Made by a program: the position numbers and the translations under genes. Source: Chitinophagales bacterium (lineage in GTDB: Bacteria; Bacteroidota; Bacteroidia; Chitinophagales; UBA10324). Taken from it: DNA of 50,689 nt. The stretch spans positions 1 through 50,689 of the forward strand of contig JANWWJ010000039.1 in the NCBI GenBank assembly GCA_025056305.1, in the 5' to 3' direction. Below are positions 168-10,341 of the stretch, one piece after another. The notes below the pieces were generated by a model. It did not search any database. It was not told where the DNA came from and saw nothing but the letters and a program-made list of their open reading frames with translations. Numbering within the stretch: the stretch's first letter is position 1; each line of letters starts with the position of its first letter.

Positions 168-1049
168 TTATCGGAACGAAACTTTACGGCTTACAACATC
201 CGACCCCTGCATTACCGTGACCAGATAAATTCCCTTACCAAATTCGTTGAGGTTGACAGATGTGTGATGACCGTCAAGATCTTGCGCTGCAACAACTTGG
301 CCGATTGCATTGGTTATGCGCAGTATAGCACCTTGCGGATGTTCTGCGAGAACATGAACAACACCCTCATAACCAAAAATGCGAACACCCATGGTACCTA
401 CCTGGGGCAGGCCTATGGTAGTGCCCGCTGTTAAGCCCACCTCAGGCGTTTGCTCATATGCATATTCCTTTAAGGTTAGCTTTTTGTCGGATTCAGATAC
501 TTCAGCGCGCATCCACCCATAATGGGTGCTGGTTCCATCGGGGGAGAAGCGCAAACCTACATAGCGGTCTCCGACACCTCCAATCCATTGCCCATAGGCA
601 CCACCTCCATAAGTGGACGCCAATGCCGCAAAAATGAAATATAAATTATTGTTATAAGAAAATACCAGGTCATTGATCACTTTCCAATCGTTATTGGCAT
701 CAATGACAGCACCTTCTTCCAGTGCTGAGGCATAACCGATTTTGAGCAGCCCTCCAATCGTATTGACGTAGCCAGCAAAGGCGTTTTGGTTGGTCGTGTA
801 ATAAGGATAAGGTGCCAGTCCTGCACGCCACCAGTTGGTGCCATAAGTGACTACCTTAAATTTAAAGTCTATATTTCCGTCGTTGTTGAGGTCGAGCGCA
901 AATTCATCGCCTACCTGAAGTTCGACATCAGGATCCAAGTCGGTATAAACAACCTGGCCCTGCGCCAAACTTGCCCCCGCTACCAGCGGTGCAGTGATTG
1001 CTGAATACTGTTTCAGCTTCTTCCACAGTGCGGCATTTTTTGGTTTCAT
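168..1049 (-). CDS. secreted protein with T9SS type A sorting domain
   Basis: A 293-aa exported protein. The N-terminus is basic, followed by a hydrophobic stretch and a likely signal peptidase site after about residue 30 (ASLAQGQ). A calcium-loop-like motif DLNNDGNIDF lies at 53-62. The middle part (about 150-190) has a pattern YVGLRF...HYGWMRAEV that recalls secreted PEP-CTERM/T9SS passenger proteins. The last ~75 residues match a type IX secretion sorting domain: an 'ILRITNAIGQVV' strand, then GIYLVTV and a terminal SRKVSFR. The sorting domain is normally cleaved and the passenger attached to the cell surface or released; that is family knowledge. The passenger's function is unknown. The start follows a promoter at 1067-1096, giving a leader of only about 10 nt. 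Confidence 0.85.
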   Translation of the reverse strand: MKPKNAALWKKLKQYSAITAPLVAGASLAQGQVVYTDLDPDVELQVGDEFALDLNNDGNIDFKFKVVTYGTNWWRAGLAPYPYYTTNQNAFAGYVNTIGGLLKIGYASALEEGAVIDANNDWKVINDLVFSYNNNLYFIFAALASTYGGGAYGQWIGGVGDRYVGLRFSPDGTSTHYGWMRAEVSESDKKLTLKEYAYEQTPEVGLTAGTTIGLPQVGTMGVRIFGYEGVVHVLAEHPQGAILRITNAIGQVVAAQDLDGHHTSVNLNEFGKGIYLVTVMQGSDVVSRKVSFR

Positions 1050-1128: not shown

Positions 1129-3693
1129 TCAGGTGTGGGGTGCGGGCATTTTGTTTCGGTATAAAGAACGGTCCACTACAGCAGCCATCTGTTCCACATC
1201 TAACTCTTCATTCAAAAAGGCGGCTACTGTTTCGGCTGTTTCCAGCGGTTGAGCTATGGCATCGGCATAGCGCACGTGCAATACTTTCATGTTTGGATGC
1301 CGACGAAACATTGCCTCGCATTTTTCCAATTGCTTCTTAAATGCTTCTGCCAAAGCCAAGGGGTAGTTGGCCGGATTTTTGCCCAACATAATCTGTTGGC
1401 TGCGGATTACTTCATCCAAATCACGCTGCATAAAAATGATGCGGTAGTCGTATTTGGGCGGAAGGTTTACAAGCAAGGGTGCCACTATTTTCACTGCCTT
1501 ACCCACCGCTTCGTGAAGCCATGAGGCATCTGTGAGCAAACGTTTGGTTTTTTCATATTCATAATACCCTTTAGGATTGTTTTCATCTGCGGGTCGCTGA
1601 CCATCTGCCAATAAAGACATGCCCCCGGCAGCCAACATCTGCATCATCATGGAAGTGCCACTTCGAGGCAAGCCGGAAACAATGGTGATGGTTCCCTTAA
1701 TGCGCTCAGCTACGAACTGGCGATGGGCAGCAGCCTTATCCGGTTTCTTGAGATGCTTGTCATAAAGCTCGATCAGCCATAAATGCGCTTTTCGATTTCC
1801 GGGCATCATCGAGCAACACACCTCGAAGGCCTCGGCAGCTTTTTCATACCATTGCAGGTGCATGAGGGCTTCACCTAAACAATAATGAGCCTGAGGCTGA
1901 TGATACTGCAAGCCAATAGCCGTCAATGCGGCTTCCGCCGCTTCCTCGTAACGGCCTTGCCTCAGGTAAACTATTGATAATCCTTGATGCGCTGCAGGCA
2001 ACTGACTATCTAATGCCAAAGCCCGAAGAAAAGATTTCAGCGCATCGTCGTTGCGATGGGTGCGTAAATACATGCGACCTAAATGCACATGTACGTGGGG
2101 CAAGTGTCCGGATTTCTCTTCGGCCCGCTTCATCACTTGCAAGGCTTCCCGCGGTCGGCATTCCAGCAGCAACAGAGCTGCTTCCATCACATCCAGCTGT
2201 ACCAGATCAGCTTCTTTAAACTTTTTGACCTCTTCAAAGGCCACTCGGAATTTTTCGGCATCCCGCAGCTGTTGATAGCATCCCAACAGGCTCAAGCCGT
2301 AACGCAATTGTTTGTCTTCAGCATAAATCCGTTCCAAAATTTCTGCAGCGGCGGCAAAGTCGCGTCGAAACATCAGGATTCGGGCCCGATAATAATTCGA
2401 CTCTCGGGCATTCTTTTCCATAGCCCGCTTCTTGTCGGGACCTGGATCTTCCACATACCCTAATTCGATAAGCTGACGAAGTGCCTCTTGAGCGGTCCAA
2501 GGATCTTCTTGCTGCTCTGGTGGGTGCATACCGTGTGGGCCGTCTATAGCTTCCCAGCTTTCAATGAAATGTGGCTCGGGAGGTTGCTTGAAAATCTGCA
2601 ACAGGGGTTTGCCATCCATGTCTTTACCCACAGGAAGACCAAACAAGGTGAGCAGTGTGGGAGCTATGTCCAAAAGGGTGGCTCCGTAAATCCGCTCATC
2701 AGCAAGAATGCCAGGCCCTTTGCAGCATAAGATGCCGAAGGGCGCATGTTCAAAGGCAGGTCCGGCAGGTTCTTTGGGCAATCGGTTCGGCCGCAAATGG
2801 TCACTGTGAAAGCCATGATCACTCAGCAAAACAACTGTAGTGTCGTCACCGGCCAAGTTGAGCAGGCGCTCCAACATCATGTCATGGAAGCGATAGGCAG
2901 AAGTGACAACATCCTTGAACAGCCGATATAACTCATCGGGTATTCCCTTGCGTTGAGGTGGATGAAACTTCATAAAACCATGACAGAAATGGTCAATAGC
3001 ATCATAGTAAACAGCCATGAAGTCCCATTCAGTAGTGCGCATTAGATAGGTTGCCGCATTATGCACGCTGGCCGCATGTGCCAGAACATTTGCAATCATA
3101 TTCACGGCCGGCATGTAGCGCATGTCAAAATGGTTTCTGGCTTCTGGAATAAAAGGCAATAAATGTTGTTCGGTCAGTTCGGCTGGATGAACACGTAGCT
3201 CGGCTAATGTATCGGCCAACTCCGGGGGCCAAACCGAGCCTGGCGCCAGGGGCCACGGATCGACGTAATGCCCTTTGACCTTCTGATAAAAATTCGACAC
3301 CATGACGCCATTTATCTGTTCGGCTGGATGGCTGGGCCACCAGGCTACGACATTACACTTCAAGCCATTCTGAGACAAAATGTTCCAGATAGCTTTTACC
3401 TTGCGCGAGGTGCTTTGAACCGGTCGGATAGTGCTGTTCTGCACATCGGGCTCTACGAAGCCCAGCACGCCGTGTTTGTCGCCCAGTTTGCCGGTGGCGA
3501 TGGACGTCCAGAGAATAGGTGACAAGGGGGGATCCAACGTGGCAATGTTGCCCATCATCCCCTGATTGACCAAGCGCTCGAGCGTGGGCATCAAGCCCTG
3601 ATCAAGCAGAGGATTGATCACCTTCCAGTCGGCTGCATCCCATCCGATGAGCAGCACTCGCTTAGCGATTCGTGTGCCCATAAAACAACTCAT
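1129..3693 (-). CDS. phosphodiesterase/alkaline phosphatase-fold, TPR and sulfotransferase fusion protein
   Basis: An 854-aa three-part protein. Residues ~10-370 form an alkaline phosphatase-superfamily domain of the nucleotide pyrophosphatase/phosphodiesterase type. Likely metal ligands are D19 (GWDAADW), D234 and H238 (DHFCH), D292-H293 (SDHGF) and H316 (HAPFG); the nucleophile is probably T63 or S64 (WTSIATG). Residues ~430-650 are TPR-like helical repeats. Residues ~667-850 resemble sulfotransferases, with a 5'-phosphosulfate-binding loop GLPRSGTS at 674-681 and a 3'-phosphate site RDLDEVIRSQ at 757-766. There is no signal peptide, so I infer a cytoplasmic location. Substrate unknown. It overlaps the end of the upstream 84-aa gene, and ATG codons at 3693 and 3681 are both possible starts. 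The domain calls are firm; the joint function is not known to me. Confidence 0.85.
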   Translation of the reverse strand: MSCFMGTRIAKRVLLIGWDAADWKVINPLLDQGLMPTLERLVNQGMMGNIATLDPPLSPILWTSIATGKLGDKHGVLGFVEPDVQNSTIRPVQSTSRKVKAIWNILSQNGLKCNVVAWWPSHPAEQINGVMVSNFYQKVKGHYVDPWPLAPGSVWPPELADTLAELRVHPAELTEQHLLPFIPEARNHFDMRYMPAVNMIANVLAHAASVHNAATYLMRTTEWDFMAVYYDAIDHFCHGFMKFHPPQRKGIPDELYRLFKDVVTSAYRFHDMMLERLLNLAGDDTTVVLLSDHGFHSDHLRPNRLPKEPAGPAFEHAPFGILCCKGPGILADERIYGATLLDIAPTLLTLFGLPVGKDMDGKPLLQIFKQPPEPHFIESWEAIDGPHGMHPPEQQEDPWTAQEALRQLIELGYVEDPGPDKKRAMEKNARESNYYRARILMFRRDFAAAAEILERIYAEDKQLRYGLSLLGCYQQLRDAEKFRVAFEEVKKFKEADLVQLDVMEAALLLLECRPREALQVMKRAEEKSGHLPHVHVHLGRMYLRTHRNDDALKSFLRALALDSQLPAAHQGLSIVYLRQGRYEEAAEAALTAIGLQYHQPQAHYCLGEALMHLQWYEKAAEAFEVCCSMMPGNRKAHLWLIELYDKHLKKPDKAAAHRQFVAERIKGTITIVSGLPRSGTSMMMQMLAAGGMSLLADGQRPADENNPKGYYEYEKTKRLLTDASWLHEAVGKAVKIVAPLLVNLPPKYDYRIIFMQRDLDEVIRSQQIMLGKNPANYPLALAEAFKKQLEKCEAMFRRHPNMKVLHVRYADAIAQPLETAETVAAFLNEELDVEQMAAVVDRSLYRNKMPAPHT

Positions 3694-3916
3694 CAGGTGA
3701 AAGCGGCTTTTGACGCTGTTGTTTTGCTAGTTCGTTGCGTTGCTCCATTTCTTGCTTTTGCTTCAACAATCGCTCACGCAGAGCCTGCTCGTAACCGGTG
3801 CGCTGGCGGGCCTCACGCCAAACTTTTAATCCGATATCGCCCAGCGCCAAAAGGCCCAGCGATCCTTCCGGGGGAATATCCATCTCTTTACCTGAGGACT
3901 GATCAATGATTTTCAT
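3662..3916 (-). CDS. 84-aa protein of unknown function, coupled to the fusion gene
   Basis: I do not recognise this family. The protein starts with a polar segment (MKIIDQSSGKEMDIPPE), then a Gly/Leu-rich segment (SLGLLALGDIGLKVW, about 19-33) too polar to be a clear membrane span, then a highly charged predicted coiled coil rich in R, K, Q and E (about 34-70). No signal peptide. Its 3' end overlaps the start of the phosphodiesterase-sulfotransferase gene by 20-32 bp, depending on the start chosen there, which suggests translational coupling and a joint role. It is the first gene of a two-gene unit, with a -7 motif at 3948-3955. Coding status rests on the overlap, the promoter and a plausible composition. 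Confidence 0.65.
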   Translation of the reverse strand: MKIIDQSSGKEMDIPPEGSLGLLALGDIGLKVWREARQRTGYEQALRERLLKQKQEMEQRNELAKQQRQKPLSPDELFYGHTNR

Positions 3917-9410: not shown

Positions 9411-9441
9411 GTGAGCGAACGAAAATAGTAACTTGCCTTTG

Positions 9442-10341
9442 ATGGATCAGAAAGCCTGTTGCGCCGACTCGGTGCTGATGGTGCGCCCCTCCTGTTTTGA
9501 TTTCAACCCCGAAACGGCAGCCACCAATCAATTCCAAAAGAAGCTCAAGAAGCCCGAATCCTTTTTGTTAAGGCAGGCTCAAGAAGAATTTGATTTATTA
9601 AAGAAAAGTCTTATACAAGGCAACATATTTGTCGTTGGTTTTCAGCAACCGAATTCCTGCCAAAGTCCCGACGCACTGTTTCCAAACAATTGGATTTCGT
9701 TTCATCCCGACCGGGTAGTGCTTTATCCGCTACAGGCAGGCAACCGACGAACTGAGCGGCACCATCATTGGGCTGCTCTGCTGGCCTCGGACAGACCCAT
9801 TATAGACCTCTCCGGATGGGAAGCGGAAGGCCTTTCGCTGGAAGGGACGGGCAGTTTGGTTCTGGATCGACAACACTGCATAGCCTATGCTGCCCTTTCG
9901 CCCCGCACCGATGCACGATTGGTACAGCTGTGGTGTCAACAACTCAATTACCAGCCCGTCATCTTTGAAACAGACATTCACGGCATCGGTCCTGTTTACC
10001 ACACCAACGTCCTCATGAGCTTGGGCCACCGGTTGGCCGTGCTTTGCACCGAAGCGGTTGCGGCACCTCATCGACAATATCTAATCGACTGTCTGAGCCA
10101 AACGCACGAAATCATTGAGATCACCCTTCAGCAAATGCAGCAATTCTGCGCCAACATCCTTTTGTTGCGCAACCGTTACGACCTACACTTTTGGGTGATG
10201 AGCGATCAGGCACACAAGGCATTTACGCCAGCGCAGCGGCAGCGGTTGGAGTCAGACGGCAATCTTCTCGCTGTACCCATTCCCACCATTGAGCAAGTAG
10301 GCGGAGGAAGCGTGCGATGCATGCTGGCCGAGGTGTTCTGA
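9442..10341 (+). CDS. ctlX: CtlX-type amidinotransferase-fold hydrolase (citrulline/arginine metabolism)
   Basis: A 299-aa member of the arginine deiminase/DDAH-like family, closest in pattern to citrulline hydrolase CtlX. Family landmarks are PDALFPNNWIS near residue 75, LEGTGSLVLD (acidic substrate-binding site), YHTNVLMSLG (catalytic His) and the C-terminal GGGSVRCMLAE with the nucleophilic Cys. Such enzymes hydrolyse citrulline or related guanidino/ureido compounds; the exact substrate cannot be read from sequence. The start is placed at the ATG at 9442, since an in-frame TTG 9 bp upstream gives no extra domain. The promoter must overlap the divergent gene, as only 31 bp separate them. 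Its stop lies 3 bp from that of purF. Confidence 0.83.
   Translation: MDQKACCADSVLMVRPSCFDFNPETAATNQFQKKLKKPESFLLRQAQEEFDLLKKSLIQGNIFVVGFQQPNSCQSPDALFPNNWISFHPDRVVLYPLQAGNRRTERHHHWAALLASDRPIIDLSGWEAEGLSLEGTGSLVLDRQHCIAYAALSPRTDARLVQLWCQQLNYQPVIFETDIHGIGPVYHTNVLMSLGHRLAVLCTEAVAAPHRQYLIDCLSQTHEIIEITLQQMQQFCANILLLRNRYDLHFWVMSDQAHKAFTPAQRQRLESDGNLLAVPIPTIEQVGGGSVRCMLAEVF

Follow-up and report, generated by a model that had tools for sequence, protein, structure and literature searches.

In a contig of 50,689 nucleotides from a Chitinophagales bacterium (JANWWJ010000039.1; this whole stretch is called the window), three neighboring genes on the minus strand, which we call A, B, and C, seem to belong together. 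B encodes a cytoplasmic protein that joins a hydrolase, tetratricopeptide repeats (TPRs), and a sulfotransferase of the kind that uses 3'-phosphoadenosine-5'-phosphosulfate (PAPS). A encodes a small protein and lies directly upstream; C encodes a secreted protein whose signal peptide carries a tyrosine motif. We propose that B and A form a dedicated system that modifies proteins before their export, most likely by sulfating tyrosine-tagged cargo (probability roughly 0.4). It is probable that A and B act on the tagged cargo before export. Tyrosine sulfation as the chemistry of B is a tentative suggestion, which we favor because B is a member of the PAPS-dependent superfamily and its cargo is tagged with a tyrosine. 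The components are of known kinds, and the system that they probably form appears to be undescribed in the literature that we searched.

The frame of B (positions 1129-3693, minus strand) is stop-free and has 854 amino acids. The gene probably starts at the ATG at 3681 (giving 1129-3681 and about 850 amino acids), which is close to the start of most homologues and overlaps the upstream gene; the frame from 3693 adds four residues that are missing in most homologues. The first-pass annotation of this DNA had read the frame as a hydrolase, TPRs, and a sulfotransferase in that order, and Pfam searches found all three parts. A type I phosphodiesterase/nucleotide pyrophosphatase (NPP) domain matches at residues 13-296 (Phosphodiest, PF01663, 6.6e-24), and TPRs match around 423-646. 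Sulfotransfer_3 (PF13469) scores 49.2 bits, above its cutoff of 27 (1e-12; best stretch 751-831), and Sulfotransfer_1 (PF00685) scores 21.4 bits at 670-846, just below its cutoff of 22. Combining these matches with structural and conservation data, we assigned residues 10-395 (2509-3666) to an alkaline phosphatase/NPP-type hydrolase, based on PF01663, the fold match to PafA and NPPs, alignment with PhnA and NPP chains, and conservation; residues 398-663 (1705-2502) to a region of helical repeats, based on the TPR matches and on helix pairs in the structural model; and residues 666-846 (1156-1698) to a PAPS-type sulfotransferase, based on PF13469 and PF00685, profile matches to SULT and TPST chains in PDB, and conservation. 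The AlphaFold model of B, made from 69 sequences, has a mean predicted local distance difference test score (pLDDT) of 90.6. No signal helix stands at the N terminus, where the hydrolase begins at once with its first strand (residues 12-18), so B has no signal peptide, in agreement with the earlier description of a cytoplasmic protein. Fold searches with the whole chain gave hydrolase and TPR matches among those listed. A scan for promoters and terminators found no excess over chance (6 versus 5.1 and 7 versus 4.6, respectively).

Both catalytic halves of B look functional, a view supported by the pattern of conservation. The six metal ligands of the hydrolase (D19, D234, H238, D292, H293, and H316) are each kept in 68 of the 69 aligned B sequences, and S58 is a serine in 68 of the 69; the only exception at these seven positions is a single paralogous copy that has lost all of them. 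The first-pass annotation had listed the same metal ligands, which hold up, along with T63/S64 as the nucleophile, which does not. In a profile alignment, S58 (codon 3520-3522, minus strand) aligns with the threonine of phosphonoacetate hydrolase (PhnA; 3szy) and with the threonine of the Xac NPP, and the threonine of 3szy is an alanine in 3t02, whose printed stretch is otherwise identical. This alignment, together with the variability at T63 (which departs in 7 of 69 sequences) and S64 (6 of 69), rules out those two residues, and the predicted nucleophile of B is S58. In the sulfotransferase, the 5'-phosphosulfate-binding loop (P-loop) reads GLPRSGTS (residues 674-681), with G674, R677, T680, and S681 in 68 of 69 sequences and P676 in 67 of 69. 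The 3'-phosphate-binding segment includes S765 and R757, which is present in all 69. Judged by these conserved residues, neither catalytic site is incomplete, a weakness that the first-pass annotation had allowed for.

The fold of the hydrolase matches PafA (5tj3: Z 27.4, 330 residues aligned, root mean square deviation of 3.8) and the Xac NPP (7n1s: Z 26.1, 271 residues, 2.6); overall, matches to PafA and the NPPs have Z of 25-27 over about 270-330 residues. The fold, the six Asp/His ligands, and a Ser/Thr nucleophile place this domain in the alkaline phosphatase superfamily. Members of the NPP/PhnA subfamily have a threonine nucleophile and an asparagine after HGI, whereas B has Ser58 and Phe79. 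F79, which replaces the PhnA asparagine, is invariant in the alignment (69 of 69), and two copies outside the 69 with inactivated hydrolase domains have leucine or tyrosine there. The hydrolase may work like the NPP/PhnA branch, yet we do not class it as an NPP. Nor is it a formylglycine sulfatase by motif: those enzymes have C/S-x-P-x-R, and the nucleophile stretch of B reads S-P-I-L-W. The first-pass annotation had raised a sulfation-desulfation pair as one possible function, which stays a conjecture here.

The P-loop, the 3'-phosphate-binding segment, and the family score place the C-terminal domain in the superfamily of PAPS-dependent sulfotransferases. When its profile was compared to PDB, cytosolic SULT-type enzymes were the best matches (2zpt, 7.6e-7); TPST chains, including TPST2, matched at 0.009-0.012, with the likeness confined to the P-loop. 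Glycans and small molecules are common substrates of the PAPS sulfotransferases in this superfamily, and NPP- and PafA-like domains hydrolyze small phosphate esters and diesters. We therefore considered whether B might sulfate a glycan, lipid, or small-molecule precursor, which the hydrolase would trim or transfer, with the tagged proteins as later carriers or binders. The SULTs of small substrates among the best profile matches and the NPP/PafA fold of the hydrolase are what this explanation would predict. However, it offers no reason for the link between B and a motif in signal peptides, and besides C and A, each gene family that neighbors B was found at nine loci at most and was left unannotated by our search. 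We consider it rather unlikely.

The first-pass annotation also hinted that the order of domains in B was unusual. It is not unique: it is a widespread, conserved architecture and not a local oddity. A scan of GTDB with two hydrolase-domain patterns found 409 relatives, and the order is kept at the best 80 of these 409 loci, which are the ones we examined (the ranking favors full-length matches, and the remaining 329 are outside our counts). Because the order is kept across these loci, the hydrolase and the sulfotransferase seem to belong to one process. Full-length homologues at 41-83% identity also show that the frame did not arise by chance. Among the 80, the frame is 800-960 amino acids long in 78; L091 has 1054 amino acids, and L058 has two adjacent frames, with the break just before the sulfotransferase domain. 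According to the record titles, the hosts are mainly uncultured Bacteroidota, along with Beggiatoa-type Gammaproteobacteria, a Nitrospirae, and others. B is also carried by a cultivated species, Portibacter marinus (locus L097). We found no description of this architecture or its motifs, and no characterized homologue with the same order, in the open-access literature that we searched, which lacks most subscription journals.

B is a single-copy gene in the window genome. Strong matches are present in 23 of 60 relatives (counting the window genome). An even draw of genomes over the phylum found B in just 2 of 395, so we used a draw over the order instead, which found it in 37 of 248; one of these (G470) is a lone sulfotransferase domain, which leaves 36. 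The genomes that we label with G numbers are mostly drafts. Separately, stand-alone sulfotransferase frames of about 383-395 amino acids, related to the C-terminal domain of B, are found at L166:1340-2491, G016:C202, G470:C329, and G498:C486.

Gene A (3662-3916, minus strand), which the first-pass annotation left out, as it did C, was identified by a motif scan, alignment, and its sequence. It encodes 84 amino acids plus a stop codon, contains the motif IPPEGSLGLLALGDIGLKVWREAR, and shares its last 20 bases with the probable beginning of B. Across homologues, which have 50-90 amino acids, the motif is IPxEGSLGLLALGxxGLxAWRxKR, and G18, G21, L23, A24, G26, and W33 are invariant in 48 aligned copies. 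Of the 76 loci that have more than 400 bases of upstream sequence, 72 have A directly upstream of B and in the same orientation (the other four are L024, L042, L059, and L080).

A also follows B across genomes. In the set of 60 relatives, A is present in 22 of the 23 genomes with B and in none of the 37 genomes without it; by family, both genes are present in 9 families, and A is absent from all 13 families that lack B. In the draw over the order, 34 of the 36 genomes with B also have A, as does 1 of the 212 genomes without B (Fisher's exact test, P = 3e-38, which ignores the relatedness of the genomes). The sole match in a B-negative genome (G554) is weak and lies in a frame of 559 amino acids. 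The two B-positive genomes that are missing A (G004 and G494) are drafts that are 72% and 82% complete. In two assemblies (G027 and G053), A is present and is not adjacent to B.

The A protein of the window has no match in Pfam or NCBIfam at E ≤ 1; some of its relatives have subthreshold matches to models of sorting signals and to other models. We considered whether A might be a PEP-CTERM protein. The Pfam PEP-CTERM model gave at most 15 bits, as compared to a cutoff of 20.7, in two of four A proteins scanned and no match for the A protein of the window, and in A, charged residues come after the motif, so we rejected this idea. A is also unlikely to be a sulfated substrate, because its invariant residues all lack a hydroxyl group. 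One further frame, L162:2061-3014 (plus strand; G053:C148), fuses the first half of A (up to EGSLGLL) in frame to a secreted-looking protein. By eye, this protein has an IPTL-type tail, and it adjoins a tagged C protein. The fusion is a possible link between A and the cargo.

Gene C (168-1049, minus strand), a conserved neighbor, begins 79 bases downstream of B and encodes 293 amino acids: a signal peptide with the tyrosine motif LKQYSA (954-1049; Y15), a beta-rich domain, and a type A C-terminal sorting domain of the type IX secretion system (T9SS; 171-407). The sorting domain scores 27.8 bits against TIGR04183 (cutoff of 23), which classes it as type A, and 23 bits against PF18962 (below the cutoff of 27). 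Its fold matches the sorting domains of RemA, NucA, and RgpB (Z 8.5-9.4 over 66-74 residues), and the top fold match is a DUF3244 protein (Z 11.1). The N-terminal domain has no clear match in PDB, and we do not take this as a sign that its fold is new. With loose clustering of the neighbors in 81 sets (the 80 loci and the window), C-type proteins account for 98 frames in 62 sets, and no other family except A is found in more than 9 sets. With a stricter profile, 51 of the 74 loci that have enough downstream sequence carry the C domain no more than 2 kb from B, and it is downstream on the same strand in 43 of the 74; tandem copies are frequent. C is a multicopy family, with 4 matches in the window genome and up to 24 elsewhere, and at a threshold of 1e-15, it is present in 24 of the 36 B-positive genomes of the order-level draw. 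Near B in G016 and G053, neighbors have IPTL-CTERM signals instead. IPTL-CTERM matches above the cutoff on proteins near B, in genomes from the same taxonomic order as the window genome, are at L109:3754-4986, L109:6387-7532, L107:7388-8605, and L106:2375-5104.

The signal peptides of C proteins share K-L-x-x-Y-S-A-x-A, or in short form, L-x-x-Y-S. (The tyrosine is invariant in our alignment because rows were chosen by it.) Assignment of this tag draws on motif counts, a profile search, and absence in B-negative genomes. First, a looser form of the pattern is present in 78 of 96 C frames but in just 2 of 112 other secreted-like frames from the same loci; the comparison frames were picked with a crude filter, and a late start of the match led us to leave out 6 of an initial 102 C frames. 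Second, we built a profile of 30 positions of the signal peptide from motif-bearing C proteins at B-positive loci. At E ≤ 0.01, it matched proteins in 20 of 23 B-positive relatives and in 2 of 37 B-negative relatives. The two B-negative genomes (G008 and G011) are drafts from the window's family, are 85% and 74% complete, and have several copies of C; B may be missing from these assemblies. Third, the tag is present in 25 of 30 C-domain proteins sampled from B-positive genomes (a spurious internal match, L142, was counted as a miss), in 7 of 8 from G008 and G011, and in none of 10 from nine other B-negative genomes. For these counts, rows in which the match started after position 25 of the model were dropped, and the regions were picked by hand. 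One close member of the C family (G535, 5e-41) is from a B-negative genome and does not have the tag.

Two genomes, G016 and G036, have B and proteins with the tag, and no match to C. Of the two tagged proteins in G016, L107:7385-8605 is weakly similar to C (30.9 bits) and has an IPTL-CTERM signal, and in L160:746-1984 (412 amino acids), the C domain is undetectable. Thus B is accompanied more closely by the tag than by the C domain.

That a signal-peptide tag goes with B more closely than does a second conserved motif, YTDxxPD, which sits after the cleavage site in mature C, might also mean that B, though evolved from enzymes, now serves chiefly as a chaperone or targeting factor for export. 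The TPRs and A would bind the tagged signal peptide and time export, and the enzymatic activity would be regulatory, for example by placing a reversible charge on the tyrosine of the tag. The array of TPRs and the small size of A, with its conserved glycine-rich stretch, would suit such a role, but few positions of B are as well conserved as the catalytic residues of its two enzymatic domains. We think this explanation is quite unlikely.

In some genomes, the two activities of B seem to be separable. In five genomes from two families (G016, G036, G486, G498, and G513), one copy has all seven hydrolase positions replaced and keeps all nine of the sulfotransferase positions that we inspected, while the hydrolase is intact in another copy (L098 and L168 denote a single locus, counted once). 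The hydrolase activity can therefore be left to a second gene. The partner copy with the intact hydrolase has a clearly degenerate P-loop in G036. In G016, this copy differs at P676 and S765; in G486 and G513, at P676 alone; and in G498, at none of the inspected positions. By its P-loop, then, the sulfotransferase activity seems to have been left to the second gene in at least one genome. A adjoins the copy with the dead hydrolase in four of these genomes, and another gene intervenes in G486. In three genomes, a protein of about 1120-1140 amino acids is found beside the paired B copies (L105:5674-9036, L166:3441-6815, and L167:2925-6341); the one that we scanned, L105:5674-9036, is an FG-GAP/UnbV_ASPIC protein.

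Genomes with B seem able to supply PAPS: APS (adenosine-5'-phosphosulfate) kinase is present in all 23 B-positive relatives, and in 29 of the 37 B-negative relatives. The first-pass annotation had suggested that the hydrolase might clear 3'-phosphoadenosine-5'-phosphate (PAP), the product of the sulfotransferase domain, by removing its 3'-phosphate. Both domains are on one chain, and nucleotide-active NPPs are neighbors in fold. However, CysQ, from the PAP phosphatase family, is above its curated cutoff in 20 of the 23 B-positive relatives (counting the window genome), so there is no need for B in this role. In addition, the invariant F79 stands in place of the PhnA asparagine, and PAP clearing accounts for neither A nor the tag. 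It is very unlikely to be the function of B.

Several observations weigh against the proposal that A and B modify tagged cargo. The tag and B are less sharply associated at a permissive threshold: at E ≤ 1, the profile matched 22 of 23 B-positive and 11 of 37 B-negative relatives. The line at E ≤ 0.01 was drawn after the list had been seen, and the matches at B-positive loci are partly built in, because the profile was made from these loci. At E ≤ 0.01, three of the 23 B-positive relatives (G005, G039, and G044) have no match, and the tag is absent from 5 of the 30 C proteins sampled from B-positive genomes. Three B-negative genomes with the C domain (G450, G598, and G614) are outside that count, and since the C proteins of B-negative genomes are mostly distant, some of the difference might simply reflect descent. 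Nor do B and C always go together: 23 of the 74 loci have no C domain closer than 2 kb to B, and at 1e-15, 12 of the 36 genomes with B lack the domain, while 10 of the 212 genomes without B have it. Clear loss of the P-loop in a partner copy was seen in one genome only (G036).

The position of the tag also raises doubts about which tyrosine would be sulfated. Known sites of tyrosine sulfation are marked by nearby acidic residues (PMC6272617). This rule fits YTDxDPD better, which makes the tag a less likely site. The tag tyrosine sits in a segment that is expected to be removed by cleavage, and its sulfation would then leave the mature protein unmarked. The tyrosine of YTDxxPD, the alternative candidate site, is not tied to B, since the motif is kept in some B-negative genomes, and we rejected it as a B-linked site: it is also found on C-domain proteins from genomes that lack B, for example G535, G527, and G059. 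A bolder reading, which we consider unlikely, is a new class of export and modification system in which the signal-peptide tyrosine acts as a recognition tag, and possibly as the sulfated residue itself, for a hydrolase-sulfotransferase with an obligate microprotein. Sulfation together with the hydrolase step would then be a reversible license that sets the time at which a family of surface proteins goes into Sec.

If B and A do modify tagged cargo, B would be the catalytic center and would act with A in the cytoplasm on precursors that carry the L-x-x-Y-S signal peptide. The superhelix of TPRs is the likely surface for binding the peptide. The C-terminal domain would use PAPS to sulfate the cargo, most likely on a tyrosine in the tag or nearby, and the Ser58 two-metal domain, as a hydrolase or a phosphotransferase, would perform another step, either on this cargo or on an intermediate that carries phosphate. 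Tagged proteins would then leave via Sec, followed by display through T9SS if they have a T9SS tail or by an exosortase-type route if they have an IPTL-CTERM tail.

Two other observations concern neighboring genes. In Gammaproteobacteria, some neighbors of B combine a reverse-transcriptase-like domain, an internal signal-like segment, and an extracellular part that is partly C-like: L055:12971-14644 (minus strand), L063:13113-16775 (plus), L072:29-9352 (minus), and L085:12759-15179 (plus). RVT_1 is above its cutoff in three of the four, with no match for L085 (L072 was scanned in its first 900 amino acids), and the PADLOC model RT_UG4 matches L055 (3e-86) and L063 (9e-66). By eye, the catalytic boxes are FMDD in L055, FMDE in L063, YMDE in L072, and ILDH in L085, so three of the four look altered. 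In the window, the protein encoded at 9433-10341 (plus strand) matches the whole of the DDAH_eukar model (PF19420, 1.2e-76), which is named for eukaryotic dimethylarginine hydrolase.

To our knowledge, few bacterial systems that sulfate proteins have been described. The operon that we describe, which is found mostly in uncultured Bacteroidota, predicts which proteins are modified (those with an L-x-x-Y-S signal peptide), the enzyme, and a small partner, and it offers a case in which a signal-peptide motif apparently goes with a specific cytoplasmic enzyme. One close comparison is RaxST, whose substrate is RaxX and which, unlike B, is not known to be fused to a hydrolase or to TPRs. RaxST is a tyrosine sulfotransferase from the plant pathogen Xanthomonas and is found with RaxABC (PMC4216712). 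Like B, it is a PAPS sulfotransferase encoded in an operon with components for export, sulfation is proposed to precede export, and the set includes an APS kinase, as do the genomes with B; the proposed export differs, being type I with cleavage of a leader (same source), as compared to a signal peptide with T9SS or IPTL-CTERM tails here. The B system also differs in having many copies of the cargo, and tyrosine sulfation is only a prediction here.

Three other systems or families share some features. In the accessory Sec/GtfAB system of streptococci, serine-rich repeat adhesins with a KxYKxGKxW signal peptide are glycosylated in the cytoplasm before export. This system and B both pair a special signal peptide with dedicated cytoplasmic enzymes that act before export. 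The analogy is functional only: B has sulfotransferase and phosphohydrolase domains instead of glycosyltransferases, its hosts are Gram-negative, and the motif of the tag is different. The NPP/PhnA/PafA branch (PF01663) shares its fold (Z 25-27) and six metal ligands with the hydrolase of B, which differs in having Ser for Thr and Phe for Asn, in being cytoplasmic, and in its fusion to TPRs and a sulfotransferase. Finally, the YSIRK-type signal peptides of Gram-positive surface proteins have a Tyr-Ser motif early in a cleavable signal peptide. The L-x-x-Y-S tag likewise has Tyr-Ser early in the signal peptide, and it differs from YSIRK in its sequence, in its phylum, and in its pairing with A and B.

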